Assembly (NCBI RefSeq): GCF_036417845.1
Contig: NC_089979.1
Span: 2,037,424-2,101,423, forward strand
DNA from: Apteryx mantelli
Taxonomy: Eukaryota > Chordata > Aves > Apterygiformes > Apterygidae
Reading direction: 5' to 3'
Length of the DNA: 64,000 nt
Of the stretch, positions 44,926 to 63,897 are shown piece after piece (position 1 is the stretch's first letter; the number at the start of each line of letters is the position of its first letter). The notes below the pieces were generated by a model. That model did no database searches and had not been told where the DNA came from. It saw nothing but the letters and a program-made list of their open reading frames with translations. The translations under genes were made by a program, and so were the position numbers.

Positions 44926-45048
44926 CTCTGGCGGCACGGCATCCGCGGGGCCGGGGCGGCACCCCAGGGCCTGGGGACTCCCCGGGCGGGGGCCACGTGC
45001 CCCCACGCAGCTCTGGGGTGGCTCTAGGGCTGGGCACCCCCTTGGGGA

Positions 45049-45440
45049 GTCACCTCCAGGCAGGGGCAGACCCAACCACCCCAAAACCCCCTTGGGGGGG
45101 GGTGTCACCCCCAGGCAGGGGCAAACCCAACCACCCCAAAACCCCCTTGGGGGGGGTGTCACCCCCAGGCAGGGGCAAACCCAACCACCCCAAAACTCCC
45201 TTGGGGGGCTTCCCCCAGGCAGGGGGAGACCCCAACTGCCCCAAAACTCCTTTGGGGGGGGAGTCACCCCCAAGCAGGGGCAAACCCAACTGCCCCCAAA
45301 CCCCCTTGGGGGGGAATCACCCCCAAACAGGGGCAAACCCAACTGCCCCCAAACCCCCTTGGGGGGAGGGGGGGAGTCACCCCCAGGCAGGGAGAGACCC
45401 CAATTGCCCCAAACTCCCTTGGGGGGGGGAAGTCACCCCC
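45049..45440. repeat. G-run minisatellite in the RHPN1 5' region
   Basis: Seven units of 50-60 bp plus a partial eighth start near 45049, 45104, 45158, 45208, 45263, 45316, 45376 and 45432. Each has GTCACCCCCAGGCAGGGGC, then CCCCAAAAC, then CCCTTGGGGGGG. Each unit carries long G and C runs, giving G-quadruplex potential on either strand. The array begins about 125 bp upstream of the RHPN1 start codon. Confidence 0.93.
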
Positions 45441-45449
45441 AGACCCCTC

Positions 45450-45960
45450 GCAGAGCCGCCCCCAGCGGTCGGGTGAGCGGCGCAGCGCAGCGCGGCCCCG
45501 GTCTCACCCCTCGCCGCCGCCGAGCGGCAGCGGTAGCGGTAGCGGCAGGGCCCGGCCCGGCCCCGGCGCTGGGCGCTGCCGGCCAGGAGCGAGCGCGGAG
45601 CCGGCCCCGCCGCGGCGCGGGGCATAAGCTGGGCAGCGGGGCGGGGCGAAGCGAGGCCGCGGCCAATGGAGGGAGAGCAGGGCGGCGATCGACGGCGGCG
45701 CTGCCCAATGGGAGCGCGGGGAAGGGGAGGCGGGGGGAGGTGCCGGAGCGGTTCGAGGCGGGAAGGGGCGGAGGGGGCCCTGTCGCCCGTGGCAACGGTG
45801 GGAATTAGAACGCCGAGGACGTCACGGGCGGGGCGGGGCCTGGCCGCGCGCGCCCCTCCCCAGCGGGGCGGCCCCTCCCCTCGGGCACATCTGGGCTCGC
45901 GCGCCCCGCGCCACATCTGGGCGCCCCCTCCCGCCCCCGCCACATCTGGGCGCCCTCCCC
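45450..45960 (-). promoter_or_regulatory. RHPN1: CpG-island promoter of RHPN1
   Basis: Dense CpG and GC, several GGGCGG (Sp1-type) boxes, two CCAAT boxes (45663-45667 and 45705-45709) and a CRE-like GACGTCAC at 45818-45825. No TATA box. The placement upstream of exon 1 fits a dispersed-start promoter. Plus-strand output is possible but not shown. Confidence 0.7.
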
Positions 45961-46054: not shown

Positions 46055-49000
46055 AGCTGTGGCGGGGACGAGGGGGTGCAATAAGGCAGCACAACGCACG
46101 CACCCTCCCCCCCCCCCCCGCAGCCAGGACTCGTCCCAGCTCCTGCTGCCTTCCACACCAATGCAGCGTCCAAGCTGCTCCCCTCCGTGCCACCCCTTGG
46201 CCACATCGTGCCCCCCCTCCCCAAAACATCTGGACCGTGGCGTAGCAGCTGGATGTTCAGAGGGCTGCCAGACCCTGCATCTGCCTTCCCCATCAGCCCT
46301 GAGCTGAACGTGGCTGCGCTTCTGCAGCACGAGGGCCTCGCGGTGTCCTTGCCTCTGCTACAACTGTCAGACGCTGCCCCTGTACAGCCGCAATCCCCCC
46401 CCCGCCCCCAAATCCTTCTCTCTGCTTTCTCTGGGCAGAGATACAGGCAAAACCTGTCCCACTTTTACTGCCTCTGAGACATCTTCTTAAGTCACGAGAC
46501 TATTTTACTTTCACACATACTCGTAAAATAAGAACCGACCTAGTCAACGGCGTTAAAGCTGGCAAAGTTTTGTGAAAAAGCGCCCGGAGACTGAAAAACA
46601 CCAGCACTCCGGCTGCGTGCTCAACACGGTGCCTCCGTGTGTACCCTAACACGTGCAGCGCCCGGCACAGGGATTCAGGCTGGATTCTCCCACTGCCACC
46701 AAGCGTTGGCTCAGCGTCCACTGGGGCTGTGGACACCATGCAACGGCTTGTGTCACCCTGAAAGGGTCCCGTAATCTTTACTGGGGCCTGCGTTTGCTTC
46801 CATAATAAAGTTAATGAGACTGCGCTCGTGTACGATTAGTCGTATTCATTGCCGACAGGACACGTCGAACAACATGCAGATTCGGTCATTTAACAAGGGG
46901 GGGAAAAAAAATAACGCAGCATGCATTAAACCGTTTACATTGCATGAATTTATTTCCTAACAGCCCAGTTTGACTAAGCCACTTCCCTTTTCCCCTTTCC
47001 CCAACAATTTTTCCTTGTCGGTTCTTCAAGGTTTGCTCGGCTCGGAGGGGCGCGATCCTGGAGGACCAAACGCGCCGCGCACCTTGCCCGGCTCAAAGCA
47101 GGTACCAAGGGCCCAAGTCTCAGCTTCTCCTATAGAAATGGTTGTTGAGCATAGTGAAACGAGGACGTCACATTTCTCTTCCTTAAAACACTCTCTAATG
47201 TAAGAATATCCCATTTGCCTGTGCAGTTGCCCGTTGTCGTGTTGCTCATCATTGCACCTTAATGTTTGCAGGAACCTGATGCCATTTTGCAAGGCAGCAG
47301 GTTACGGAGGAGACGGATTTTTCTCTGCCTCTCGGATTTCTCAATCTTAAAGGAGTCACCGGACGAGAAAGGCGAAAACCCTGTTTAAAGGGTAGCCGTG
47401 CCTCTCCTGCCTAATATTGCAGCAGCCTGCAGAGCAAAGCGCTTTAATCGTGCGGTCGCAACGTTCTGCAAAATCCGCAGACGCGGAGCCCGCGTAGGAA
47501 GAACCTTTTCCCTGCCCAAATGCGCAGCCGGCTCCGGCTCCTCCGCGCGTTTCTTCGGGGAGGATGCGTCGTTCTGGTTCGCTTTCTGCTGACGAGGAAG
47601 CCGCGTTCAGCCCAATTTGGGCTGACGCCTCGCAGGCTATTACCACCAACACAACCCTCGCGGTTGCCAGCAGCTCGCCGTGGCGGCGCCGCGCGGGGGA
47701 CCCGTTTGCAGCCCGGCTCGGCTTTCCCGGCGGCAGAGCCCTGGACAGAGCGATCCTGCTCCCCACCTCCCACATCGCCTCCTTTGCAAAGAGCTTTAGC
47801 ATCTGCAAAAGGAAAATATTATATAAAAAAAGATCTTGATTATCAAGGGGGTCGAGCCGGGTTATGTTTTGGTGGGATTTACAAGCTGGCTAGATCCACT
47901 TCTGGGTTGGGGCAGGTTTCTTCTGGCTCATGTGCCACGCACACCCCATCCTTTCCCCTTGCAGACATCCCGACTGGGGTGGGACAGCTTGGGAGAAACT
48001 CTCACCAGGAACCAGGTGGCAGGGCTGAATAAATCCCTGTGGGACCCAGGGCGAAAATTCAGCAGAAGGCGAGAGCGCGGAAGAGAACCCGCGATACGCC
48101 GGTCGCCGGCTTTGCGACTCTGTCGCCCGGCAGAAGGAGGCCGAGAGCGAACAAGCCCTGGCAAGAAGTCCTCGCCTGCTCCCTGCCCTGGGGCCGGCTC
48201 CCACCCCTTGACGACTTTTTACTCATCCAGCAAGAAAAGTGGCTTGGACGCATTTTCCACGAGTGGCGCAACTGGGATCAAAGAAGCCCTCCCTCCCGGA
48301 GCCAGCCCTGCCCAGGGGGACTTCTGCTCCCGGCCAGCAACCAGGCTCGACCTTGGACCAGGGGAACATGCAGCCCGCTACTCACCCAGGCTGGAGATCT
48401 GGATACACGGCAATACTTTTCCCTTTCCTTTCCTTAAAATCAGGTGTTGCTGGCCCAGGAAAGCTTGCAGCTTTGCATGCCAGTGGTTGCAAGTGCACGG
48501 TGCTGTGCAGAGCGGGCTGGTGCCCGGGAGAGATTCCCCTATGGAGAAGAGGCTTGGAGGGCTCCTTGCTTTGTGCTGCCATGCTTGCAGCCCCACGCGT
48601 TGTCTTAAGAGCGCTGATTGAGGACAGAAAGACCTGTTTCGAGCCTCCCGCTCAGCTGCAAGGAGGTACCTGATGGCAAACACAGGCAGGTGCAAGCAAT
48701 AGACTCCCCTACAAGAACAGGGCTGGAGGAGAGGAGAGCAGGATGGTGCAAATGCCTTGGTGAGAGAGCAATAGGCAGCAGCCTGCAGGATCTGGCCTCC
48801 GGGCCCAGAGACCACCCCGAAGTGCAAGATGGGGCTGGCGCTGGGTAAGAGGCAGCTGAGAAAGTCTAGTTTTTTGTGAGCGACTTAATCACCTAACCCC
48901 AGGGGTAATATCTTCCCCGAAAGGAGAATTCCCCAAGCTGTTTGCACCACGGCTGCTTGGTGCAATGCAACAGCTCCTCTTTGGAGGTCCCAAGCCTCTA

Positions 49001-49094
49001 TCTGAGCAGTGCAAAGCGTTTTCCACCCAGCAGCTCCCCTTGCAGAATAGATGCTGGCTGATGGGTCTCCTTAAAACTCAACTTTCAGGCTAAA
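45961..49094. other. Intergenic spacer between RHPN1 and TOP1MT
   Basis: Contains C-rich runs (C13 at 46107-46119). A second CpG-rich stretch at about 47400-48350 has no recognisable exon. Long open frames here, up to 261 codons, follow GC composition and lack protein motifs. The CpG-rich stretch could be a further promoter. Confidence 0.45.
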
Positions 49095-49139
49095 ACTTCA
49101 TTTCCCAGGATGCACCTTGGGCTGGGGGCCTCCAATCAG
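49095..49139 (+). promoter_or_regulatory. TOP1MT: ZNF143/STAF-like motif plus CCAAT box, upstream TOP1MT promoter
   Basis: ACTTCATTTCCCAGGATGC at 49095-49113 matches the ZNF143/STAF promoter motif (ACTACAATTCCCAGAATGC) at most positions. A CCAAT box follows at 49132-49136. A strong donor (CACCAG/GTGAGT) lies 130-150 bp downstream, so this fits the promoter of the upstream first exon. Confidence 0.55.
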
Positions 49140-49263
49140 GGCCAAGGGAGTCTTGAAATAAGCTCCCTGCAAGGGGGCATTGCCCTAAGGGAGGTTGTTG
49201 AGGAGGTCTGTGAGGTCTTACCCACCCTGAGCAGCATCCAGGGAGTGTGTCAGCCTGCACCAG
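49140..49263 (+). other. TOP1MT: Probable non-coding exon 1 of long TOP1MT isoform
   Basis: The 5' edge is approximate. The 3' edge is a consensus CACCAG/GTGAGT donor at 49263. Joined to the exon at 49924, the frame of the ATG at 49988 has an in-frame TGA upstream and no earlier ATG, which supports 49988 as the start. Confidence 0.45.
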
Positions 49264-49987
49264 GTGAGTGTGGGGGCCCACCAGCAGCTGCAAGCACTTA
49301 GGGCTCTGGAAGGGCTGTTAAGCATGAAGGTTTTCAGTCTGTTTCCCGTTCTCTGAAAAGTTTGCAGGGTCTCTCCTTTTGCTTCATGGCTTGTGCTTTC
49401 ATCCTTGAAAATTCCTGGTTTTCCTAGGAGGGTGAAGGTCTCCTTTGCCCTTCAGGGATGGGGACCACCTAGGTGTTGTTGTATTGCTTGCATCCCTTGC
49501 AGCCTCAAGTTTCCAGGCAGGAGCAGTGATTTGGGGGGTGGGGAGTGGGATGTCTGCCTTTGAAGGGAGTCAAATTCTCAGTTTTGCTCTTGTTTCTTCC
49601 TTGTGTTTTATTATTTTCTGCTGTGGTGGCTTTCTGGCTGTTGCTTTGAGGATGCGAATCAACCCCGGCGCAAGACCCCCATCAGCCTGTAAGGAGGTCC
49701 ATGCTACAGAGCTGGGCATTCGCATGATCTTTAAGGGGGCCCTTCCGTTTTGGGAGCGACTTTATTTTCACTGCTGTGGCAGCAGCTTGGAGCAGAGCAG
49801 GACCAGTAGCAGCAGGATCCCTACACATGGTTGGAGGCTTCAGGATCCAGCCTGGAGCAAACCCTAGTCAGAGCCGCCTCTGAGAGCGAAACCTCGGTGC
49901 TAACGGCTGCGTCTCGCTTGCAGTTGTCCTCAGGGATGCCGAATTAGCCCCGTGTCCGATCGCGAAGAGCAGGTGGCTGAAAGAGCC

Positions 49988-50049
49988 ATGGGGACCTCGA
50001 GGGCTGGCGGCACGAAGATGCCGGTGGAGAGGAAGAACAGCGTCAGCCG
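49988..50049 (+). CDS. TOP1MT: TOP1MT long isoform, start exon (coding part)
   Basis: ATG at 49988 in a strong GCCATGG context; the exon itself probably starts at 49924 after CTTGCAG. Codes for [20 protein letters not shown] plus two bases of Arg. Donor CCG/GTGGGC. Confidence 0.55.
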
Positions 50050-53000
50050 GTGGGCACCGCCAACTATCGCGAGCGGGATGCGGGCAGGGGGGCTTGGGGT
50101 CCCCAAACTTTATGTTACCGTGCTTGAAGCGAATGCATGATATATCTGTAGGGCCACTCATCCCTAAAATAGGCAGCTGTGAGATCCCTGGCATAGATGC
50201 TCCAAATTTCCTTTTAGGGGTGTTTTCTTGGTGCTGTCAGATACAAGGGTTTGGCCATGTGGGTTTCATACCCTGACTTATCTTGGCAGTATCTGCAGCT
50301 TTGCCACAAGACGGAGAGCTGGGACATGCTGGTTGGTCATGGTGATGGTGGAACGACTTTGCTCTTTCCCCAGGAAACGCAAGAACGAGTCGGAGAAGGG
50401 ACAGGATGTGCCAAAAATGCCCAGAGGAAAGACCATGAAGAAGGAGCAGGAGGAAACTCCATGCACGGATCAGGTAGGAGGTATCTTACTGGCCACCCTC
50501 CCCATGTGTGGATCCCATGGGCTTTGGAGGTGACCCTTGAGCTGATCCCACCAGGCGTGAGCACACCAAGTTTTGTGCCCTACACGCATCTGGCCCGTGG
50601 CACAAACTTTCTTCTTGTTAAAACCGTTTCCCTGGTCTGGCCCGAGCACAGCCCCCTGCCTCAAAAGGGAAGAAGAAAACACCCAAAGTCAAGGAGAAGC
50701 CACTGCAGGAAAACGTCATCAGCAGGTAACTTCTGCAATGGCCTGGCTAGAAGGGGGCAGCCAGGGAGGAGACGGGAGCCCTTGGGCAGAGCTGGCCCAG
50801 AGTGGGGAAATCTACCTCTCTGGGGGTCCCTTGAAGAAAGAGTGGTGTCCTGGGCAGCCGAGGATGACTCTGGATCTCTCTTCCAGGGCTCGTGTTGGAA
50901 AGTGGAAGATGTCCCACGCTTTTGTGTAGAATGGGGTGGGGTTGTCCTAGTCTGACTGATAGATGTATTTTCCCTCCCCCAGTCAATGCAACTTCTCAGT
51001 GGGAATGGGGTCCCAAGGGGATGTATGAGATGTCCATCTCAAGAAAAGCTGCTGGAGACTCAAGGTGCTGCCCGGAGAGAGGAGATGGCTCCGTTCTCCT
51101 TGGGTTGCTTTAATTATCAAAGGGTTTTTTTTATCAGAAAAACTTGCGTCCTCTCTCTGTCTCCTTTTTTGCCAAGAAGCTCTCTAAAGCAAGAGGCTGC
51201 AGAAGGCAAAGGTCCTAGCTCGACTCTGTGTGATGGGATCCAAGTGAAAGAGGAAGCAGTGTCTGGAACGGTATGTGGCGGTGTCTGTGCCGAAGGATTA
51301 AGGAGCATTAAGGAGTATGGTTTGCTTTCGAGGGGACTGTGAGGGTGGTACCCTATTCCTTGAGGCTGGGTATGAGCCCCTTAAAGGGTTCCTTTGAACA
51401 CCTTGAGTTAAATCTAAGTAGCCCAGAGTGGCAGGAACAGACCTTGCAAGGAGCTTAGGAGGCAAGTAAGGTGTTGAGTCTGGTCCAGACTTCTAGAAGG
51501 CTGGAAGATCTTCATAACGCTTCCCTAGTCCAGTATGAAAAATGTGCTTTGGGAAGACCTTGCAAATAATAGAAAGTGGCTTCCCGAAAACTTGTGCCAA
51601 ATCTCCCTTTGCCGTGTTGTTTACTGCAGTGTCCGGGTTGGACTGGACTGGTTTGCAGTAGCCATGGGGTGGAGTTGCAGCAGATAAAGTGGCCGCACAC
51701 AGAAAACTTCAGGGTCAGATGAAAGGATCTGTGCCTATTTCAGCACAGATATCTTTGGTCTTTGGTGCTGCTGGAGTGATGGTGGAGAGTGCAATAACGC
51801 GGGCAATGCAAAATGGATGGGGAATCGGCCACGATAACATACTGCACTTGGCCAACTGGCATGGAAAACCAGGAAGGCTGGTGGATAGGGTTAACCCGCG
51901 GCTGAGATGACCCCAGACAGACAAACCGCAGCGTTGCTGTGGCGGTGTGTCCTGACCAGGGCAGGCAGCCAAGGAAGGCTTTGCTCCGCAGAGCTGATAG
52001 CGACTGCGATTTGGGCAGTGGCTTCGTTGCAGGTGGAGCCCCGGGGAAGCCAGAGGGACTTTTTGTGTCAACAGGCAGGACCAGAGGTCCATCTGTGGGG
52101 TAACTTCCCCATAGCGGGGCCCCCGCTGAGCGCTTTGCTGCTTTGGAGATATTCGGCGTTTGCTTTTCCCTCCAGTCACTGTCCCTCTTGCAAACTGTCC
52201 GAAATATCTGAGGTCTCTCCTAGATCAGTGTTTGCAGCTCTGCAAGGGCCAAGAGCTGAGCTGCATCCTCCCAGCCGGTGTCCTGGTATTGTCACTCTTC
52301 CCGTTGCAAATACCTGGCATTTATGTGCAGGATTTCTTTGAAAGACTGTGGCTGGTTGCTGCTGGGCACCGTCCTGAATTTACCAGTCTGATTTTGACAG
52401 CGGCCGAAGGATTGTGAATTCAAGAGCAGGCATATTCCCAGGGACCGAAAGTGTATGTTGCCATAACCAACCTTTAATTAACCCAGGGTTGTTTTTTTTT
52501 CCCTCTTTAATGAGTTAACACAGCTGTTTCTCAGCAGAAAGAAATCCCTGTGTGGTTTTGGCCTCCCTTTAAAGCCTTGGAAAGGAAAACTCGGGGAGTC
52601 AGAATTGGTAACGAAAGACTCGGTGCTTGGCAAGCGTTGGCTAAAACTGGGACCGATTTCAGGGCACTGCATGGTGAGACGCGTTCTTGCGTTCTGCTTG
52701 GCAGCGTGTGCAGACCTCAGCACCAGCAGAATAAGAGACAGATTTCACCTTTTAAAACAAGCGTACCAACAACACGATAACGTTTCTGGTTGCCTTTGCA
52801 GGTCAGCTTTTAGGGCTTTGAACTGAGTCCCACCTGAGCTCGTTTTCTGTTGTTCCAGCTGTTGTCCTCAGCTTCTGTATCTGTTTGCTTTTTCCACTTC
52901 TGCACCTCTTCAGTTCTTCCTTCCCTGCTGTTTCCCCTTCTTGTATTTCTGCTTCTGCCAGCCCGGTGGTTTTACCCCCCACCTTTCTCGCCATCTGCTA

Positions 53001-56000
53001 CAATTGTCATTTAATCTGCTAAGGGTGAAGCTGTCACTAATGCACAAAAACTGTGACTCGAGCGATCGTCTTTCTGGAGCCCTCCTGTCCCTTCTTGCAT
53101 CCTGGACAGGTCTTTGCATTGAGTGTCCCCGATAGCAGCATCACATCTAACGAGTGATTAAGTGGAACGGGGATAGTTTCCCTGTTCTGGCTCCAAAAAG
53201 TACCTTTTTAGTGTTGGTAGAGGCAACCAATGGGTTTCCCAACCCTGGAAAAATATCCAAGCTGCCCTTGTGCTTTGAAAAACCTAGCTAATTTTGGGTG
53301 GTCGTTCTGGGCTTTGCTGTTCCTGGTTTCCATCCAGGCTGGTTGAGGAAGGGAAGGGTGATGCCACCGTCGGGGGCATCGCAGTGTTTCCGACGGCTCC
53401 AGGCAGGAGCGATCCGACGCTGCTGTGCATCTCTTGCAGGAGCAGCCCGAACCCACCCTCCACCGAGGGCCGGCTCCGGGGCAGGAGGGCACCTCGAGGT
53501 AGGTTCGTTGGGCCGCTTTGCCAGGTCTGCATGCTTTCGGTGATCCTGTACCTCAAAAAACACGGTGGTGGGGAAACGCCATGGGGGACGCCCAGCTCCC
53601 CAAAGCCTGGGAACCAGGCGTTTCTCTTGCTGCGTGTCAGATCTGTGCAGAGATACGAACCTAAATTCATAAGCAGTCTAATCCTCTCGGAGTCGGGGGC
53701 TTTCATGTCCGACGAGAAGCCTCTAATAAGACCTTCTGGGGAAGGAGACGGTCCCGAAACGTTGCAGGACTCGGCCGTCTGAGTCACGAATTCATTGGCA
53801 CCACGCTTGCTCCTGTGGGCCTGATGAGACCGGGGGAGCTGAGCGTGTTTTGCAGAGCGGCGCTGGGCTAGTTACTCTAATGAGTTTGGTGGAAACTGTG
53901 TAACGCTCGCTTTAGTTATGCAGAAAAAAAAGCGGTCCAACCCCCGGACCTGGTGGTTTCCCTGGCGTTGCTTCCCCCGCGCTGACGCCGCTCTTGCAGC
54001 CGGAGCGGCTGAGCTCCCCGGGGGAAGGAAACCGCAGACCCAAGGGCAGGGCTGTGGGAAAGTGAGTAGTGCCCCGTGATTTATTTGACCACAAAGCCAC
54101 GTTACGGTGGCCTGCGTTTTGCTAAAACGCTGAGCCTCGCCCACGGAGGAGCCTGGTGGGACACGGAAGGGTGATTTTTTTTTTTTTTTATATATATTTA
54201 AATAAAGCTTCCTTTTGGGGCTATCCTGAGCACTGCATTGCGCTGAAGTCCCACCACCTGGTAATACAGCTACAGCCTCGACCGTCTTTTAGAAACGAAC
54301 CCAAATTCCCCCTTCTCCTTGCGGAAATCCTATCTGTGGGATGCTTCGGCTGAAAGCAATCTGTGACCGACCCCGCTTTGGGTGAGAAACCCAGCCGGTC
54401 TTGGGCTCCTCTTCCAGGCTTGCGGTGGCGTCGAGCGAGCTGGCGATATTTCAAAACCGGCCCCCTTAAATCTTGCTTTGGCTCTGGCGGGGTGTTTGGC
54501 AGCCGGACCTCTGGTCCAGGTGGTGGGGCTTGTGACCCTGCCTGGTTTCTTCTGTGGTTTCTGGAAAGGTTGCTAATACCTGGCATGAAGGGTTGGGTTT
54601 TTTTTGGGGTGTGTGTGTGATTTTTTTGCAATTCTTCCTCCTCTGGATAGCAATTGCTCTGCTTTAATATTTCACACCCAGCCCCGTTTGCCCTGTATCT
54701 GCTGCAGAGCCGACCGTTCCCTTGGTTGCATTTGTTTGTCCATGCCATTATGGTGCTTTTTAGCCTGTGCTGCCCCCAGGCTCTGCCTTCTCCCTTCCTC
54801 CTCTCTCTTCTGCATCTCGCCAGCTTCCTCCCCATCTCGGTGCCGGGGGATCGTGCAGGCAGGGCCCTGCCTGGAGCACGGGGACGGCTGCACGTTTTGG
54901 CCAGAGCCAAATCCCTGCGAATCTGTCCCCTTCTCCAAGCGAGGGGAATTCCCAGGAGGCTTCTTTGGTGCATCCCCCACTTGGTCTGGAGACCTTCATG
55001 GTCCTGCTCATTTGAGCTTCGTTATCCCCTAATCCACAACCCGGGGCCACCCCGTTGCTGTGGCAGATGGGTCAGGTCTCTGCCACTTTGGGATATCTCC
55101 ATCGGCCGCAGCAGCCAAGATGCTGCCATGCTGGAAAGCAAACGTGGGCTCGCTTGGGAGGCATCCCAAAATACCTATATATCGATACTCTATTGATATT
55201 TTTGATGTTGATATTTTGCATTTTTGGCTCGTGCACAAGGTAGAGGCTGGTGCTCGCAAATGTGATTAAAAGCGGCTGTGACATTTGTTGCAGGTCGGAG
55301 CGCGAGCCCCGGAGAGCAGGAGCTGCGGCGGGTCGGAGGACCAGGGTAGGAAACTTCCTGGCGGTTCGCAAGAACTGTGGCGACGGCGCCTTTCCGTCAC
55401 CCACCTCCTCTGTGCATCCGAGCTCTTGGATTATCCTTCCCGACTTAAATCTTTCTTCCTTTTTTGCTGTTTCAGAAGGTGCCGAGGCAGCGGGAAATGG
55501 GACGGGACGGCGCTAACGGCGAGGTGGCATCCGTCCCCGGAGAGCTGGGGGATTTGGGGGAGGCCATCATGGGCGAAGGGGGTCCAGACGTGGAGGAGAG
55601 GAGGAGAGCGGAGAAGGAGCTGGGCTCCCCTCGCCTGGAGCCGGGCGCCCGAGACCCGAAGAGGAAACGGGGAGGAAACGGAGAAAAGAAGCAAGAGCGA
55701 AGGAAGCGGCGGGAGAGGGGACTGATGAGAAAAGATGCCGACGAAGAGGAGGATGAGTTGGAGGAAGGGGACCTGGGGACGCGGGGAGAGAAGCAGGGTG
55801 CTGGCGAGGGAAGGAATGGGGGAATGGAGCAGGGAAAAGCTGGGAGGACAACCAGGAGCACCAGCCCCGTCCCGGGAAGGGGCGATGGGGAAAGGACTGG
55901 TAGAAGGGATGGGGAGAGAGGGGACGAGGGTGGATGGGGGGAGCAAGACAGGGCCAGCGATGGGGGACAGGCAGGGCCGAGCCGGGGGAAGAAAAGGCTG

Positions 56001-59000
56001 GAGAAGGTGAAGGTGGAGAAGAGGAAAAAGGTGAAATCAGAGCGGGGGAAGAGCGGGGAGAAGGAGGAAAAGGGGGGAAGGAAAAAAATTAAAAAGGAAA
56101 AAACTTCAGAAGCGGAGCAAAAAGTAGAAAGGGCAGATGAGGAACAGGAGAAACAAGAGGGAGAAGGACCAGGAGGGAGTGAGGGGAGAGCTGGGAAAGG
56201 GAAGGAGAGCGAAGATGAAAAGGGAATCAAGCAGGAGGAGGAAGAGGAGGATGAGCAAGGGGGTGAAGGACGGGAAATGATCTGGAGCACAGAGCTTGGG
56301 CAAGAGGTGAAAGAGGAGGAGGATGTGGAGACAGGAGAAGTGCCGGAGAAGGACAAAAAGCGGAAAGCCAAGGCGAAAAAACCCAAGGAGGAAACGAAAG
56401 GGAAGGGGAAGAAAAGCAAAGAGAAGAGCAAGGAGGCAGAGACCCCAGAGAAAACCCGGAAAAGGAAATCCAAGGAAGAAGGAGAAGAGAAGGGCAGCAA
56501 AAAACCTAAAAAGGAGGAAAAAGAGAAAGAAAAGAAAGAAGAGACAGAAAACAAATGGAAATGGTAAGTGTTCTGCATGCTGCAACTTTTGGCCTCTGGG
56601 CAGGTTTAACTCCAATGCAACTGGAATTGTAGTTTTATTTCTTCTGGTAAAATTCCGAAAAATGTGTTTTGTGGGTTTTTTTTTTTTTAATTGACCTTTT
56701 TGTATTTTCTTGGATATGAGGGGGAGATGGATTTTTACAGCGGTTTTTGCAGGCTATAGGCAATGCTTTTTGGGACAAGAACTGCGGGAAAGGGCATCCC
56801 AGCGGGGCCGACAGATGCCACCTCCGTAGGCTGACAGCTCTCGTGTTGCCCAGGGCGGGTTCAGAAATGGGAAGATGCCGCCCTTCTCTTAGCAATCCCC
56901 TATTGCACTGCTTTTCCCCCCAAAAACGTGCCCGGGACTACGTTTCCCAGAAGGCTCTGCTGCCCTGGTGCGGTGGGAGTCCCACATCCTGGACCGCTTG
57001 GACAGCGCCTGGACAGCGCCTGGATGGCGCTGGAAGCGCCGGGTGGCCGGCGATGATGCTCGGCGGGGATGATGCTCGGCGGGGATGATGCTCGGTGGGA
57101 CCGCCGCAGCCCTCCGCCGTGATGCTTTGCGGGTGGCACCGGCCTCCGTGGGCCGTCCGTCCGGTGGCGTGCACAAGCGCGTGGTGGCCTCGCTGCTGGA
57201 GCGGGGAGCCCGCGGTGTCCGGCTCAGCCCCGCGCGCCTCCAGGTCCGCTCGGTGCCTGCGGCCACCACGGGGCCCCGGGACAGGTGAGCGCCGGCCCAG
57301 AGCCCCCCGGGGCGGGTGATTGCCCGCGGCCGGGAAAAGCGCCGGAGCCGTCACTGTTTCTTGCAACACCCCTCAAATCACCCTGACTTTATGACTATGC
57401 TTTTCCATGTTTTCCGGGGATGAGGTGCCTCTTGGGGTGGCTTATTTATTCTTCCTCCCCTTCCCATGGGGAGGAGACGGGCTTGAAATACTTCCGGGGC
57501 ATCGCTGGGGCAGAAACGCCGGGATTTTTTTTTTCCTTGGGGGGGATTTTTGCTGTGCTTCCTCAGAAATTCCCAGCTTCCCGGGTAGGCTGGGGTTAAT
57601 GGGACGGTGCCTGCTGTGATTTCTCCTTGCGCTTTCCCACGTGGGGCAAATCCCCTTTCTGTCCTGATGCAACGCTGTCATAAAAAGTTCCTATCACAGA
57701 CATCTGCTGCTGCCTCAGTTTCCCTAACCTTAATTATCTTTTTAATGTTACTTCTCTACTATGCAAGGGGGACTTTTTTTTTAATTTTTTTTTTGAAGTC
57801 CTAATTTTATAGCTAAGCCTCGCAGTGATTTTAAAAACCTAGTTGCTCTGCAGAGTGGGACAATGTGGGTCTGTCAGCATTAGGATTGCAGGCATAAGCT
57901 GTACAGGGCGCTGGTGGTCTCCTGGCCACCAGCGTGTCATGACGTGAGCCTTCCTCTCTGGCGTATGCACACGGCCTCTTTTGTGCCCATTAAAAAAGCG
58001 AGGCTGGGGAGGAAGAGGATGGATGTCAGCCCTTGCAGACCCCTTTCTGCTTGCCGAGCATCTTTCCAGGGGTGACCTGGAGGGGAAAAGAAAAATCCCT
58101 CCCTGTTGTCCAGAGGTGCAGCCCATGGTGGGTTGAGGATGCTCTCTCACGGCTTGCGTGTGCCTCTGTCCCAGGTGGGAAGAGGAGAAGACAGGTGACG
58201 GGATAAAGTGGAAACAGCTGGAGCACAAAGGCCCCTACTTCGCCCCCCTCTACGAGCCGCTGCCCGACGACATCCAGTTTTACTACGACGGTATGTCCGC
58301 GTTGGCTGGGGAGGGGGACGGCTGTCCGGAGGTGCATGGACTAAGAAGTGGTACCGCTCTCTTGGGAATGATCCCTCACCCAACTGGAGGACCAAAATAT
58401 GCCTTTTTATCCCTGAATGCTGAGTTGGGGCCAAAGGGTTTGGCCCACGTTATGGGTTCCTGAGAGTTATTTAATGCTAATGAGCCCACGATGCTTGCGG
58501 ACGCATGTGCCTTGTCCCCCTGTGTAGAGTGTCCCAGGGTAAGGTAAGGGCTCATGCGTGTGTTGCAGCAGCTTTGCCTGGAGTTGAAGGTGCTGTCGCA
58601 CAACCATGCAAAGATCTGAATTTCTCCAGGGGAAGCAATGCTCTTGATGCCGTTGCTCAAAGTCTTCACGTACCTTCTGCTGCCCCATTGTGAAGCTGAT
58701 GCCTTACAGCAACTCAATGCATCAGTGAGGGGCTGAAAGCCTGGCAGGATGGATCCAGGCCTCTGCTGTCACCCTGGGGTTTCCCACTGCGACTGCCAGG
58801 CTCTTATCTCCTCCTGGCTCCAGCCCTGAGCTGTTTTCTACTGGATCACAGGAAGGAGGCGAGGAAGGACCCTGGGCCAAAGGGTGGTGGAGATGGGATG
58901 AGACCATGGCACCATTTCCCATGGGGTCTGGGTCCTCCTCAGCCCCTCGTGGAGCTGTTGGAACTCGTGAAAACCCAGATGGTTCCCATTCTGTATGCTT

Positions 59001-62000
59001 CTTTTTTAACAGGAAAAAAAAAGTGACAATTTGGGGAAAAGAGATGTCAAGTAACGCTGGTGTCACCAGAGGGCACTGCTGGGACATCGATGGGGCTGTC
59101 AGAGTTGTTTTGGTTTTGCTTTGGGGTTTTTTGGCTTTCTGAGAAGGAGCCCTGCAGCTGTCTGTGGTTTTGTATGGGGCTGAGCATCCCTGTATCCCTC
59201 TGGGACTGTGTATCCCTGTATCCCGGCCCCCCAGCAGTCGGAGGCACACCTGGCCCTTGGCACAGGGACACAGTGGGTTGCATACATCTGAATTGGGAGA
59301 CTTTGGCCCAGGGTCTTGGGTGACGTTAGCTTCTTTGATGAAAAGTGTAATGGTTTCTGGATGAAAATACATGTTTGTGCCTAGGCAACAGCCTCGAGGA
59401 GCAGGGGACCAAGTCTGATCTGGGGCACGTAGGTTGCTGTGGGCACGGGCTTGTGCAGGTCTGCTGTGAAGCTGTGACTCACAGTGTCCAGCAACTCAGC
59501 TAGACGTCAGGAATCCCCCAAATCGGAGCTGCTGGTGCAGGCAGGATTGAACTGTCCCCCACAGCTCTGTGGGATGCTTTTCCTGCAACTTGTCTAGGAA
59601 AGCTATTTTTAAAAAGTATCAGTTTCCTAGGAGGAGCCAAGATGTTCCTGTGAAACGATGGGGAAAAACGCTGCCCACGTGGACTTCCTCGCTTCGGAGA
59701 GGTGGTGGCTTTGCCGCCTCTGAGACATGATCCAAGACCCAGTAAACAACCAGGGGAAGCTCTTACATCTGTTGCCATTACACAAGTTTATTCTTTGAGC
59801 TTCCTGCGATCGCTCTGTCACATGGAAAATGTTTTGAGATGAAATGTCTCCAAGTGGGATCCTGGCTGCTTCAGCGTGGTCCTGTCTCTGGAGGACTGGA
59901 AGTGACCAGGGTTGGAAAAACAAGCCTTTATATGTTGTCCTGTGTCACCAGTGAAGAACAGCGTGACCACAGATTTGGGGCTCGGCATCACATGGAAGCT
60001 GCCAAAAGCCCCATGGCTCAGTGACCTTAACGTAAATCAGGATTTCCACTTGCCTGGGAAAGAAAATGAAGTGTGTGATTGCAGATCGACTGTGGCAGCA
60101 GTCTGGCTGTGCTGCATGCTCAGGGTATTGATCTGCTAGCAAGGCTGTGTGTGGTGCCAGGTCCCCATTTCGGCACTGGGAACGCAGCGTGTTGAGCGTG
60201 GAGACTTGCCAAACGATTGCTTGGGACTGCAGGGCCGGACTGTCTGCGTAAGCAATGCTAACGCGTTTGTCTGTCTTCCTAGGTAAACCTCTGAAGCTGA
60301 GCTTGGCCACCGAGGAAATTGCCACCTTCTATGCAAAAATGTTAGATCACGAGTACACAACCAAGGAGATTTTCCAGAACAACTTCTTCAATGACTGGAG
60401 GAAGGTATCTTCCCTACGGGGACTTGCTTGATGCCAGTCTTCAGCGTTAAAAGTGGGATTCCCAGTGGGCAGTGGTGGATGGTCTGTGGTGCAGGAGGAA
60501 GGAGATGCTTTTTCTGTGGCTTAACTTTTTATTTCCTCAGCCCTTGTGGGTTTGGTTCAGGGGTTGCTGTCTGCAGCATCCTTGAGTGTTTCTCATTGGC
60601 ACTTAGTGTCAACCCTAGGTTCAGTGACACTACCCAAGAAAGCAGGCGCTGGTCTTGCAAGCAGCCCCACGAGTTCCTTGGGAAGTGCATACTCACGTGC
60701 GTCCCTCTGAAGAATTAACCTTGCTAGCTAGCACCTGAAATCTGTTTTGCCTCCTTGCTTTACCCAGCCATTCTGATCTCTCTTGCTCAGGAAATGACCC
60801 CAAAGGAGCAGAAGATAATCAAACGCCTGGACAAGTGTGACTTCAGGGAGATCCACAAGTACTTTGTGGACAAAAGCGAGGCGCGGAAAGCTCTCTCGAA
60901 AGAGGAGAAGCAGGTGAGGCTCCCATGGGTGTCTGGGGCTGGCTGATATGTTTTGGGCCCAGCTCAGGTGTTTCTGTTCTTCTAGGCCAGGAGTTTTGCT
61001 GCCACCCTTCCTGGTGGGTTATGCCCTAACCTGGGAGCTCTTTGGCCTTTGAACCAGCTCCCACCTCTCCATCACACAGCTCTCCATTAAGCTCATCTGC
61101 AGATGCTGCACGTTTCCTGGCTTTGCAGGTTACCAGTCATCCTTGGACCATGGTTTGGGGTCCTGTCCTGCTTGGAGGATGTTGCACCTTGCTAAGGTGC
61201 TGGTGGTACTGAGGCTCTGCTCCCTTGACATCTCGGACTGGCACAAGATCACTGTGCTGGCCTGAGCATTTGTAAAGTGGCTGGAGATGAGCCAGGTGTT
61301 GGGAGGGGGCTTAGACCTGGGATAAACTCTTTCCAGCCCTTCAAAGCTCTGCCTTTCCTGGCTTGCTTCCTCCTGGGAAAGAAGGGTGGTGATGAGCAGG
61401 CACAAGTCATGGGGTTTCGGCTCTGTCCTGAGAGGTGATGGTGGGATGGTGCTCATTTCAGAAGTTGAAAGAGGAGGCGGATAAGATCCAGGAGGAGTAT
61501 GGGTACTGCATCCTCGATGGACACCGAGAGAAAATAGGCAACTTCAAAACCGAGCCGCCGGGGCTGTTTCGTGGCCGTGGTGATCACCCCAAAATGGGCA
61601 TGCTGAAGAAAAGGATCATGCCCGAAGATGTGGTCATCAACTGCAGCAAGTGAGTTGCTGTGGGGAGAGCTGAGCTTGTGGGGCCTGGTTTGTGATGGGT
61701 AAATGGCACATCTCCTGTGTCCGGAGTTGCTGTGGGGTTTTGCTGTCCGTCTCCTGCAATCACTGCTTTGCAGTCCCTGAGATTTAAATCCATCTGAGCT
61801 CTTCTCTGTCACCTCCTGTTCTGGATACCTCCTTTGCAGTCAGGTCTGACTTGGATGTACAGTAGCTGGGGAAGCCAGTCAACAGCTCCCACCTCTCATC
61901 GGTGCCGGCACCCTTTGCCAGACATCAACTGCAAATACTGCAGTGCTCCTATGGCCCCTGAAGAAAGGATGACAGTGTGCTCTTCTCCCATGCTCTCCTT

Positions 62001-63897
62001 CAAAATGAGGCATTCCTCCTCACTTTACAGGCTGGAAGCATCAGGTTTCTCCCTGGAGGGAGCAAAAGTAGCAATAAATTGGGAGCGTTTTGCAACCTTT
62101 GAGTTATGTCAGTTGGGTTGATCTTAATCCCCCCCAAAGGAAGACCGTGTGGTTTTAACTCAAAACATGTCCTCACTTCCCCTCAGCCCAGCAAGTTCTC
62201 CAGTTGTTCTTAGCATCCAAAGTGTAAAGATCTGATTGTGTTGTGGAATAATTGGGGCAGGGGGAAAGGTGTCTGTTTTTACTGTAAGTAATGCTGGAAT
62301 TTCTTGACCTTTGCCCACAGTGAACAAACAGTCGAGCTGCTGACCTGTTTCTTCTCCCTCTGTGGCTTCTTCTGTGCTTAGCACTGCTGTGCCAGACTCT
62401 GGGGGAGTCCCAGGGCTGTAACCCTCTTCTTGCCTGCAGGGACTCCAAGATCCCTGAGCCACCGGCGGGCCACAAGTGGAAGGAGGTGCGCTTCGACAAC
62501 ACGGTCACCTGGCTGGCCTCGTGGACCGAAAACATCCAGAACTCCTTGAAGTACATCATGCTGAACCCCAGCTCTAAGCTGAAGGTCAGAGCGTTGCTGC
62601 CGTTCAGGCAGAGCTGTTACCGTTTTGAGACACTGACCTTTTGCCAGGTGGAAAAATCAGGGTAAAGCAGAGATGTGCCCAACTGACAAAAATATATATG
62701 AAAAAAAAGGTGGCGGTGGGGGGGACAGGGAGACTGCAGATTAATTGGGATGCCCTTAGTAGGGAAGGGTAGGGCAGAGGTGACCACTTTAAGCATCAAA
62801 CCTGTTCCTGGTGACAAATCCCTGCTGTCAAACCTGTGCCTGTGCCACGCTGCTCACCTGCATTTGGGGAAGGCAGCTAAAAGCTGGGCAGGGGCTGAGA
62901 GGGTCCTTGGGGGACTGGAGCCCATGGAGGTGGGTTTGTTCAGGCCAGCAGACAGGGCAGGAGGAGGTGGAAATGCCGACTGTAGTGCCACGTGAATTGG
63001 AAGTGGGTGGACACAGTGGGGAGGGAAAAGTCATTTAAAGACGTTTCGTCAAAGGGATGCAACACAGTGTCGGAGGAGGAAGACGAAAATCCTGATTGCT
63101 TGGACAGCAGATCCTGCTAGGTGTAGCAGGGGGTTGATGCACCAGGGGATGGGACTGGGGAAACCAGGTGCTCTGGCATGCCTAGCACAGCCTCTGCATC
63201 GGTACGGAGGGACAGTTCCCACCTCAGGTCCTGCTGAGGAATCACTAATGTCATCCCAAAAGTTGGGATCCGCTGACCAGTACGTGCCCCGTGGTCCAGC
63301 CCCTGCTCATGTTACATGCAGCTTCTTCCTTCTCACTCCCAAGGCCAGATGAATGTTGGAAACCATGTGGAAGTGGTTCCAGAAAGCACATTGCATTGGT
63401 CCGTGCCAGTGTTGTCTGAGCAGCAGCAATCGTGGCCGTACAGCACCGGAGCGCTTGGCTCCTTGCTTGCCGTGTGCTGGCCTGAGCAGTTGGAGGGCAT
63501 CTTCAGACCGAGAGCAGCTCGGATGCAGTGGTGATCCTGGGTCTGGAGCAGCCAGCAGAGGGCATAGAAGCCCCAACTGAGCTTTTTCTGCTCTAATATT
63601 TCCACTTCGTAGATTAAAAAAGCCAAAAACATAAACAGTGGTTATTGAGCAATATTTAGACTCTGGAGGTTGTGTCCCCAGGAAAGGGTCTAGCTTGAGG
63701 GGATGGACAGATGATGGGGTGCTAGGTGGAAATATCTCTGCCTTTCTTCTCAGGGGGAGAAGGACTGGCAAAAGTATGAGGTAGCCCGGCGCTTAAAAGA
63801 TGTTGTCCACAAAATCCGTGCTCAGTACCAAGCCGACTGGAAGTCCAAGGAGATGAAAAAGCGGCAACGAGCAGTGGCCCTCTACTTCATCGATAAG
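49988..63897 (+). CDS. TOP1MT: TOP1MT long, TOP1-like isoform (partial, runs off right edge)
   Basis: Predicted type IB topoisomerase with a long charged N-terminal domain ahead of the shared core. Upstream exons 49988-50049, 50374-50473, 50652-50725, 51177-51270, 53440-53498 (or 54000-54061), 55294-55345 and 55476-56563 sum to 509-510 codons plus two bases, in phase with the core exon at 58175. The domain is Lys/Glu/Arg-rich with NLS-like KRKN and KGKKK stretches and SUMO-type motifs (VKEE, IKKE, IKQE). It ends KWKW, completing the WKWWEEE junction of nuclear TOP1. Human TOP1 has about 200 residues here. The core belongs to the TOP1MT branch. No mitochondrial signal is seen at this N-terminus, so nuclear location is inferred. 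Exon edges rest on splice signals and phase. Confidence 0.6.
50374..50473 (+). CDS. TOP1MT: TOP1MT long isoform, basic exon with KRKN
   Basis: Codes for [20 protein letters not shown] and then [13 protein letters not shown]. Acceptor TTTCCCCAG, donor CAG/GTAGGA. It enters in phase 2 and leaves in phase 0. KRK and KK clusters look NLS-like. Confidence 0.6.
50652..50725 (+). CDS. TOP1MT: TOP1MT long isoform, Lys-rich exon
   Basis: Codes for [20 protein letters not shown] and then NVIS plus two bases. Acceptor GAGCACAG, donor AGCAG/GTAACT. The phase fits both neighbours. Confidence 0.55.
51177..51270 (+). CDS. TOP1MT: TOP1MT long isoform, exon with VKEE
   Basis: Codes for [15 protein letters not shown] and then [12 protein letters not shown]. 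Acceptor TTTTTTGCCAAG, with a second AG three bases on; donor ACG/GTATGT. Phase 0 exit. VKEE fits the SUMO consensus. Confidence 0.55.
53440..53498 (+). CDS. TOP1MT: TOP1MT long isoform, candidate alternative exon a
   Basis: Codes for [19 protein letters not shown] plus AG. Acceptor CTCTTGCAG, donor CGAG/GTAGGT. It enters in phase 0 and leaves in phase 2, like the candidate exon at 54000, so only one of the two can be used in a transcript. Confidence 0.4.
54000..54061 (+). CDS. TOP1MT: TOP1MT long isoform, candidate alternative exon b
   Basis: Codes for [20 protein letters not shown] plus AA. Acceptor CTCTTGCAG, donor GAAA/GTGAGT. It has the same entry and exit phases as the exon at 53440. 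Either fits; both together break the frame. Confidence 0.4.
55294..55345 (+). CDS. TOP1MT: TOP1MT long isoform, Arg-rich exon
   Basis: Codes for [17 protein letters not shown] after completing the preceding codon. Acceptor TTGTTGCAG, donor CAGG/GTAGGA. Phase 2 entry and phase 0 exit fit both the exons before it and the large exon after it. Confidence 0.5.
55476..56563 (+). CDS. TOP1MT: TOP1MT long isoform, 1,088-nt charged exon
   Basis: A single open exon of 362 codons plus two bases, dominated by Lys, Glu, Arg and Gly. It has repeated KK, EE and RK clusters and probably no fixed fold. Acceptor TGCTGTTTCAG; donor AAATG/GTAAGT. The end NKWKW, with the last Trp codon split TG/G, corresponds to human TOP1 QKWKW just before WEEER. 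IKKE at 56088-56099 lies in KIKKEK, a hexamer also present in human TOP1. The plus strand is strongly purine-rich throughout. A frame this long, in phase with strong splice sites at both ends, argues for real coding. Confidence 0.75.
56937..56955 (+). promoter_or_regulatory. TOP1MT: ZNF143/STAF-like motif, mitochondrial TOP1MT promoter
   Basis: ACTACGTTTCCCAGAAGGC matches ACTACAATTCCCAGAATGC at 16 of 19 positions. It opens the CpG-rich stretch 56940-57300 and lies about 150 bp before the start codon at 57085. Confidence 0.6.
57052..57099 (+). repeat. Three 16-bp units, each with ATGATG
   Basis: GATGATGCTCGGCGGG occurs at 57052, 57068 and 57084 (the last slightly changed). Since 16 is not a multiple of three, each ATG pair is in a different frame. 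Only the third (57085) opens the TOP1MT frame; the first two give uORFs of 11 and 17 codons. Confidence 0.9.
57085..57284 (+). CDS. TOP1MT: TOP1MT mitochondrial first exon (targeting leader)
   Basis: Codes for 66 residues plus [22 protein letters not shown], then Arg/Val/Ala-rich sequence with [11 protein letters not shown]. Basic, acid-poor and able to form amphipathic helices, as matrix leaders do. Donor GACAG/GTGAGC leaves phase 2, so Arg is completed by the G of the exon at 58175. Confidence 0.82.
57085..63897 (+). CDS. TOP1MT: Mitochondrial DNA topoisomerase I, canonical isoform (partial, runs off right edge)
   Basis: Relaxes supercoils in mitochondrial DNA by a transient 3'-phosphotyrosyl break. 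Seven exons give the first 346 residues; human TOP1MT has 601 in all. Residues 1-67 form an Arg/Ala-rich leader with one Glu and two Asp, typical of mitochondrial targeting. The core then begins [20 protein letters not shown], as human TOP1MT begins [25 protein letters not shown] and [12 protein letters not shown] follow TOP1MT rather than nuclear TOP1. The window ends after YFIDK, four residues before the equivalent of catalytic Arg488, so the active site is outside. The gene is head to head with RHPN1. Confidence 0.9.
58175..58290 (+). CDS. TOP1MT: TOP1MT first shared core exon
   Basis: Codes for [20 protein letters not shown] and then [18 protein letters not shown]. Acceptor CCCAG, donor ACG/GTATGT, phase 1 exit. 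Its phase 2 entry accepts either the mitochondrial leader exon or the large charged exon. Confidence 0.95.
60283..60404 (+). CDS. TOP1MT: TOP1MT core exon 2
   Basis: Codes for [20 protein letters not shown], then [30 protein letters not shown] is near-invariant in type IB enzymes of animals. Acceptor TTCCTAG; donor AAG/GTATCT, phase 0 exit. Confidence 0.96.
60791..60913 (+). CDS. TOP1MT: TOP1MT core exon 3
   Basis: Forty-one codons: [20 protein letters not shown], then [20 protein letters not shown] and Q. IHKYFVDK is the TOP1MT form of this segment. Acceptor GCTCAG, donor CAG/GTGAGG. Confidence 0.96.
61462..61649 (+). CDS. TOP1MT: TOP1MT core exon 4
   Basis: Codes for [20 protein letters not shown] through [20 protein letters not shown] and [23 protein letters not shown] belongs to the DNA-clamp cap region. 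Acceptor TTTCAG; donor CAA/GTGAGT with a split Lys codon. Confidence 0.97.
62440..62584 (+). CDS. TOP1MT: TOP1MT core exon 5
   Basis: Codes for [20 protein letters not shown], then [20 protein letters not shown] and LNPSSKLK. Acceptor CTGCAG, donor AAG/GTCAGA, phase 0 exit. Confidence 0.97.
63754..63897 (+). CDS. TOP1MT: TOP1MT core exon 6, last in window
   Basis: Forty-eight codons from [20 protein letters not shown] to [11 protein letters not shown]. Acceptor TTCTCAG, donor AAG/GTACCC. The next exon, with the equivalent of catalytic Arg488, starts beyond 64000. Confidence 0.96.

Follow-up and report, generated by a model that had tools for sequence, protein, structure and literature searches.

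A TOP1MT gene with a predicted mitochondrial leader and a nuclear TOP1-type head, both in phase with one core

Introduction

The closest described systems are the vertebrate type IB topoisomerases, nuclear TOP1 and mitochondrial TOP1MT. Human TOP1 has 21 exons and encodes 765 amino acids. The tryptophans that precede its WEEE motif bear on strand rotation and on the response to camptothecin. According to one study, the TOP1 head contains nuclear localisation signals and activity does not depend on it, and human TOP1MT has 14 exons and 601 amino acids, with an N-terminal domain of 49 residues (PMC10081982).

One gene can also serve two compartments, as does TOP3A, for which nuclear and mitochondrial forms are described (PMC12585908, PMC6514783). 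In this respect TOP3A resembles what we propose below for TOP1MT. It differs in that its forms arise from alternative start codons, whereas for the TOP1MT studied here we propose a separate promoter and first exon for each form, and in that this gene has an additional dedicated nuclear paralogue. In Caenorhabditis elegans, top-1 gives two splice forms of a single TOP1 gene. It is alike in being one TOP1 gene with alternative head exons and unlike in being the single TOP1 gene of an invertebrate, not a mitochondrial paralogue.

A nuclear-type head on TOP1MT appears in none of the titles and abstract openings among the listed matches from the TOP1MT and topoisomerase I literature, and the words 'isoform', 'chicken' and 'bird' are absent from the main text of the Chordata study. 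Alternative starts for two compartments are already known; the new part is the nuclear head on TOP1MT, of which we know of no case. Automatic gene models may already contain it.

Results

The gene is of the TOP1MT type and is intact to its stop

We analysed a stretch of 64,000 nucleotides (G000:C2:2037424-2101423, hereafter the window) within a genome of 1.504 Gb and 408 contigs; positions are those of the window unless a contig is named. In profile searches the gene at 58-64 kb matches the DNA-binding and catalytic families of topoisomerase IB. Solved DNA topoisomerase I chains, from structure entries that we take to be human, match across all 287 residues tested. Six core exons lie in the window, all on the forward strand: C1 at 58175-58290 (WEEEK...YYD, PF02919), C2 at 60283-60404, C3 at 60791-60913, C4 at 61462-61649, C5 at 62440-62584 and C6 at 63754-63897. 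Exons C7 to C13 follow past the window on the same contig (G000:C2), and the core is a single open frame through C13 to the terminal stop.

The same genome holds a separate, intact nuclear TOP1 on contig C18. The TOP1MT core exons, C1 to C13, measure 116, 122, 123, 188, 145, 144, 186, 69, 115, 128, 95, 150 and 103 nt, and all 13 lengths, six within the window and seven beyond it, equal those of this TOP1. For its head, six exons were delimited by splice sites at both ends and two more (MSGDHLHNDSQ and IEADFR) came from alignment to a human peptide. As a first-pass annotation of the window had stated for vertebrates, TOP1 and TOP1MT are separate paralogues with common downstream exons. Since the gene in the window runs unbroken to its stop and the genome has its nuclear TOP1 elsewhere, it is not a nuclear TOP1 misread.

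The TOP1MT core carries the active-site motifs LALRAGNEK, LGKDS, AKVFRTYNAS, AILCNHQR and SKLNYLDPR, to which we assigned the catalytic residues. These residues are given for TOP1MT as Arg, Lys, Arg, His and Tyr in a published table (PMC10081982).

On the reverse strand, a rhophilin-type gene occupies 9488-33447 and runs away from TOP1MT. Its HR1, BRO1 and PDZ domains stand in the expected order; seven of the eight frames tested match one of them, three of the eight above Pfam's cut-off. Human TOP1MT has such a neighbour too. By sequence, the family matches, the core exon lengths, the separate TOP1 on contig C18 and the rhophilin-type neighbour together identify the gene as one of the TOP1MT type. 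The rhophilin-type gene may start in a very G+C-rich stretch at about 45.5 kb, near which a G/C-rich unit of about 60 bases is seen by eye to be repeated in tandem, in degenerate copies (45020-45450). Between the two genes, 46500-47999 has a CpG observed/expected ratio of 0.82-1.05 and a G+C content of 0.48-0.59, and this interval contains no evident coding first exon.

Two further loci lie elsewhere in the genome. A decayed third TOP1-type gene on the reverse strand of contig C10 (G000:C10:4600234-4618951; loci L016, L017 and L022) consists of five pieces like core exons 3, 4, 5, 6 and 7/8, which are in order and separated by introns, and two of the five contain stops. Core exons 1 and 2 were not found in the 60 kb searched there (E up to 0.5). 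This gene looks like an old intron-bearing duplicate rather than a retrocopy. On contig C5, a cytochrome b fragment with four TGA and one TAA in frame (G000:C5:76869236-76869688) is perhaps a nuclear copy of mitochondrial DNA.

A leader exon and a large upstream exon join the core in the same phase

The TOP1MT gene has two heads that join one core in phase. The first is a leader exon of 200 nt on the forward strand (57085-57284), which lies in a CpG-rich stretch (57000-57499: G+C 0.69, CpG observed/expected 0.87) and encodes 66 residues. The leader is arginine-rich, with 11 arginines and one lysine against three acidic residues (net charge +9). By general sequence measures, residues 32-49 form an amphipathic stretch, and the helical moment of the leader is 0.63. 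The exon ends two bases into a codon at a donor that ranks in the 99.7th percentile among 914 scored GT sites from 47 to 64 kb, and it joins C1 at 58175 in frame as ...PRD-R-WEEEK. At the start of the leader, the 16-base unit ATGATGCTCGGCGGGG can be seen by eye to stand three times in tandem, with some variation in the third copy (57053-57100). As the unit length is not divisible by three, the third copy alone continues into the leader frame, and each of the first two opens a short upstream frame.

The second head ends in a large forward-strand exon, U9 (55476-56563; 1088 nt), which is rich in lysine and glutamate; the leader lies in the intron between U9 and C1. U9 also ends two bases into a codon, at a donor in the 99.5th percentile of the same 914 sites, and joins C1 in frame as ...ENKWK-W-WEEEK, that is KWKWWEEEK. 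The last head exon of TOP1 on contig C18 ends after the KWK codons, two bases into the tryptophan codon that follows, and then come a phase-2 intron and WEEER, so that the place and phase of the junction are the same. The AARTGGAARTGGTRAG junction pattern, built from the observed junction after this had been seen by eye, has one match in the window, at the end of U9, where 0.04 are expected with one mismatch allowed; four of 100 shuffles also gave a match. We regard the agreement of the U9/C1 junction with that of TOP1 as the best evidence for homology between the upstream head and the TOP1 head. Both joins had been put forward in the first-pass annotation, as R-WEEEK and KWK-WWEEEK, and both stand: each is in frame behind a strong donor, and U9 is open throughout.

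The coding frame of U9 contains no stop, compared to 7 and 10 in the other two frames. Purine-rich DNA is poor in stops and tends to open frames, and one frame of the reverse complement of U9 is open as well. Among 2000 dinucleotide shuffles, only one was free of stops in the coding frame and two in any of the three. Moreover, the period-3 chi-square of U9 is 49.5, while the highest of 1000 shuffles reached 21.6. When the exon is taken in thirds, the periodicity is equalled or exceeded in 1, 33 and 0 of 500 shuffles, which shows that the middle third is weakly periodic. A search of NCBIfam returned nothing for either U9 or the leader.

The gene in the window thus resembles two described genes in different ways. 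With human TOP1MT it shares the 13-exon core, the short leader spliced onto it and the active-site motifs, and it differs in having a second, nuclear-type head upstream, where the human N-terminal domain has 49 residues (PMC10081982). A short N-terminal domain without a nuclear-type head is found in the leader form and not in the predicted long form. With nuclear TOP1 it shares a charged head, the KWK-W at the same intron and phase and the 13 equal core exons. It differs in the last head exon, which has 98 nt in TOP1 on contig C18 and 1088 nt here, and in the core, in which 430 of 560 aligned residues (76.8%) are identical.

A chain of small exons can be read upstream of U9

Upstream of U9, splice-site scoring and frame joining gave a series of candidate exons on the forward strand. 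U1 (49114-49263, with a provisional 5' end) is a candidate non-coding first exon with the donor CAG/gtgagt (score 12.2, 99.9th percentile of the 914 GT sites). U2 (49934-50049) contains the start codon at 49988, flanked by G at both -3 and +4; the best chains start there. U3 (50374-50473) ends in ...MKKEQEE and holds a basic cluster; its acceptor is in the 99.3rd and its donor in the 98.6th percentile. U4 (50652-50725) has a donor in the 99.1st percentile and a weak acceptor in the 63rd, and an alternative acceptor at 50668 goes with a U3 that ends at 50480. U5 (51177-51270) encodes two SUMO-type motifs (LKQE and VKEE). U6 (53440-53498) is entered in phase 0 and left in phase 2, as is U7 (54000-54061), and U8 (55294-55345) precedes U9. 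Either U6 or U7 alone fits between 51270 and 55294. We rejected U7 after U6, since the join makes a stop, and U7 is therefore a candidate mutually exclusive alternative to U6.

The frame is open from the ATG at 49988, which is the usable start of the long form. An ATG at 49110 was rejected as the coding start on frame: traced by hand, neither acceptor of U2 brings it into the chain in frame. Position 49095, where the first-pass annotation had the locus begin, proved to be the first base of a promoter-type motif and non-coding.

The support for the small exons depends on what is scored. When gene finding used splice sites only, they were not separated from shuffled sequence, with a score of 32.2 against a mean of 12.3 and a maximum of 37.6 in 60 shuffles, and at a second penalty with 12.6 against a mean of 1.2 and a maximum of 25.5 (60 shuffles). 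We also searched for chains between 49.8 and 55.5 kb using splice sites together with a residue-content term trained on U9. In this search the best chain scored 33.5, whereas 150 shuffles averaged -1.9 and did not exceed 6.5, and 29 mutually overlapping control tiles of the same length did not exceed 12.7. With the penalty raised, the best chain scored 12.8 against a maximum of 2.8 (150 shuffles). The best-scoring chain differs from the exons given above: it adds 52538-52673, has a longer U5, uses the alternative U3/U4 pair and holds both U6 and a lengthened U7. Thus, a spliced charged head is better supported than each of its small exons, and the exact small exons are uncertain. Taken together without U7 (441 nt), U2 to U8 have a periodicity of 18.7, a narrow excess over the maximum of 17.6 in 500 shuffles.

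The predicted products differ in their N-terminal regions

The predicted long product, U2 to U9 spliced to the core, has 1,070 residues and a mass of 122.1 kDa (1,071 residues if U7 replaces U6), and the predicted short product has 627 residues and 72.6 kDa. A table from a chicken resequencing study lists a TOP1MT variant, M383I, on chromosome 2 at 148.0 Mb (PMC4152579); methionines of the short product are at 332, 417 and 443, and we therefore draw no firm link to it.

The head of the long product consists of 19% glutamate, 16% lysine and 10% arginine. It contains nine basic clusters of the form K-K/R-x-K/R, a number not above what its composition would yield (190 of 2000 shuffles have at least nine). 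It also has eight psi-K-x-E motifs of the SUMO type, compared to 1.4 expected and reached in none of 2000 shuffles. The helical moment of its first 68 residues is 0.33, lower than that of the leader. The predicted long form has the tryptophans before WEEE, which the leader form lacks.

Past the junction, the likeness of the head to that of TOP1 is mostly not significant by sequence comparison. Without its last six residues the head scores 150 against a human TOP1 head, compared to a maximum of 148 in 500 composition shuffles, but 174 of 500 block shuffles reach this score. When the last 80 residues, less the final six, are compared to those of human TOP1, 49 of 500 shuffles attain the score of that comparison. 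Exon by exon, 37 of 42 pairs between U exons and TOP1 head exons are at p >= 0.05. The five pairs with p < 0.05 are U2-E5 (z 5.4), U4-E5 (z 3.5), U3-E6, U4-E3 and U7-E6, so that U2 and U4 compete for the same TOP1 exon. None of the six combined alignments was significant, and five of 35 junction-anchored comparisons gave p < 0.05. The intron phases of the U exons (2,0,2,0,2,0,2) fit those of the TOP1 head (2,0,2,2,0,2) with one extra intron; since this series fits in more than one placement, we give it little weight.

A promoter-type motif precedes each head

Allowing at most three mismatches to a consensus, we searched the window for ZNF143/STAF-like motifs, both sites having been seen by eye beforehand. 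The 64 kb contain exactly two such ZNF143/THAP11 (SBS)-type motifs, both on the forward strand, one before the nuclear-type head (49095-49113) and one before the mitochondrial leader (56937-56955), where 0.06 are expected; none of 100 shuffles had two. Each has two mismatches to the consensus. In two studies of these factors ACTACA or ACTAYR is the THAP11 part of the motif, and the CCCA...TGC side belongs to ZNF143 (PMC7154149, PMC5006282). The second motif fits ACTAYR, and the first departs from it at one position. The sole copy of a CCAATCAG box in the window, at 49132, starts 19 bases after the end of the first motif.

The surroundings of the far promoter are unlike those of a housekeeping promoter: 49000-49499 is depleted of CpG, with an observed/expected ratio of 0.06, which suggests germline methylation. 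The far promoter is possibly tissue-restricted or dead. Around the start of U9, the ratio is 0.93 (55250-55749).

Discussion

The upstream exons and the leader give this TOP1MT two in-phase heads on one core, as the first-pass annotation had claimed. That annotation had left it between a head that was kept and one that was regained; retention is the better supported, because TOP1 has the same junction, in the same phase and with the same KWKW words. We lean, with moderate confidence, towards the reading that the gene kept the charged nuclear-type head of a TOP1-like ancestor and that a far and a near promoter give a long and a mitochondrial form. Transcription from the far promoter, at about 49.1 kb, would yield a transcript that runs from U1 through U9 directly into C1, skipping the leader. 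It would encode a type IB topoisomerase some 1,070 residues long. This enzyme would have basic clusters and eight SUMO-type motifs as well as the KWKWW junction, and would probably enter the nucleus. The near promoter, at about 56.95 kb within the last head intron, would drive a transcript that begins in the mitochondrial leader and encodes a mitochondrial enzyme of 627 residues.

In the simplest history, a duplicated TOP1 would have acquired a promoter within an intron, together with a mitochondrial leader, and served both compartments. The intron that holds them would be the one that separates head and core in TOP1. Mammals would later have lost the nuclear head, given that human TOP1MT has 14 exons and an N-terminal domain of 49 residues (PMC10081982), and the gene in the window would be an intermediate kept to the present. 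From this layout we infer expression of both transcripts, a nuclear location of the long product and an origin of TOP1MT through a promoter and leader borne by an intron. The fuller claim, that the locus is the ancestral TOP1MT arrangement, still makes a nuclear enzyme of about 122 kDa beside TOP1 and lost its head in mammals, is tentative, and we judge it slightly less than evenly balanced.

It is unlikely, although it merits attention, that the head is a relic in which ancestral exons survive, the far promoter is dead and the mitochondrial transcript alone is made. Such a state would agree with the CpG depletion of the far promoter (0.06), the weak acceptor of U4 and the small residue-level similarity to the TOP1 head. 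However, a periodic frame open over 362 codons with strong splice sites at both ends is unexpected after long neglect, and the other frames of U9 hold 7 and 10 stops.

We consider it improbable that a promoter in the CpG-rich stretch around 55.3 kb gives a long product starting within or close to U9 and that U1 to U8 are partly or wholly spurious. Start codons are at hand there, at 55497 (G at -3 and at +4) and 55569 (A at -3, G at +4), the CpG ratio of 0.93 would suit a promoter, and splice sites alone do not distinguish the small-exon chain. Against this, the chain stands out once residue content is counted and is periodic, and U1 combines a near-consensus donor with two promoter elements before or within it.

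A long product that is made and is not nuclear, being cytosolic or also mitochondrial, seems very doubtful to us, in view of the lysine-rich head, its basic clusters (though no more of these than composition gives), SUMO-type motifs as in the head of TOP1 and a helical moment of 0.33 in its first 68 residues, below the 0.63 of the leader. We give practically no weight to a purine-rich tract that happens to be open: such DNA is stop-poor and a reverse-strand frame of U9 is open too, but a single shuffle in 2000 was as open in the coding frame, the periodicity lies above all shuffles and the TOP1 junction words stand exactly at the U9 donor.

If the retention of a nuclear-type head by TOP1MT is true, a TOP1MT with such a head would be an intermediate step that makes the origin of the mitochondrial enzyme testable: one gene would have served two compartments first, and specialisation would have come later. 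Some vertebrates would then have a second nuclear type IB enzyme, a third type IB product for vertebrates, and this would matter when camptothecin and knock-out data are read in those animals.
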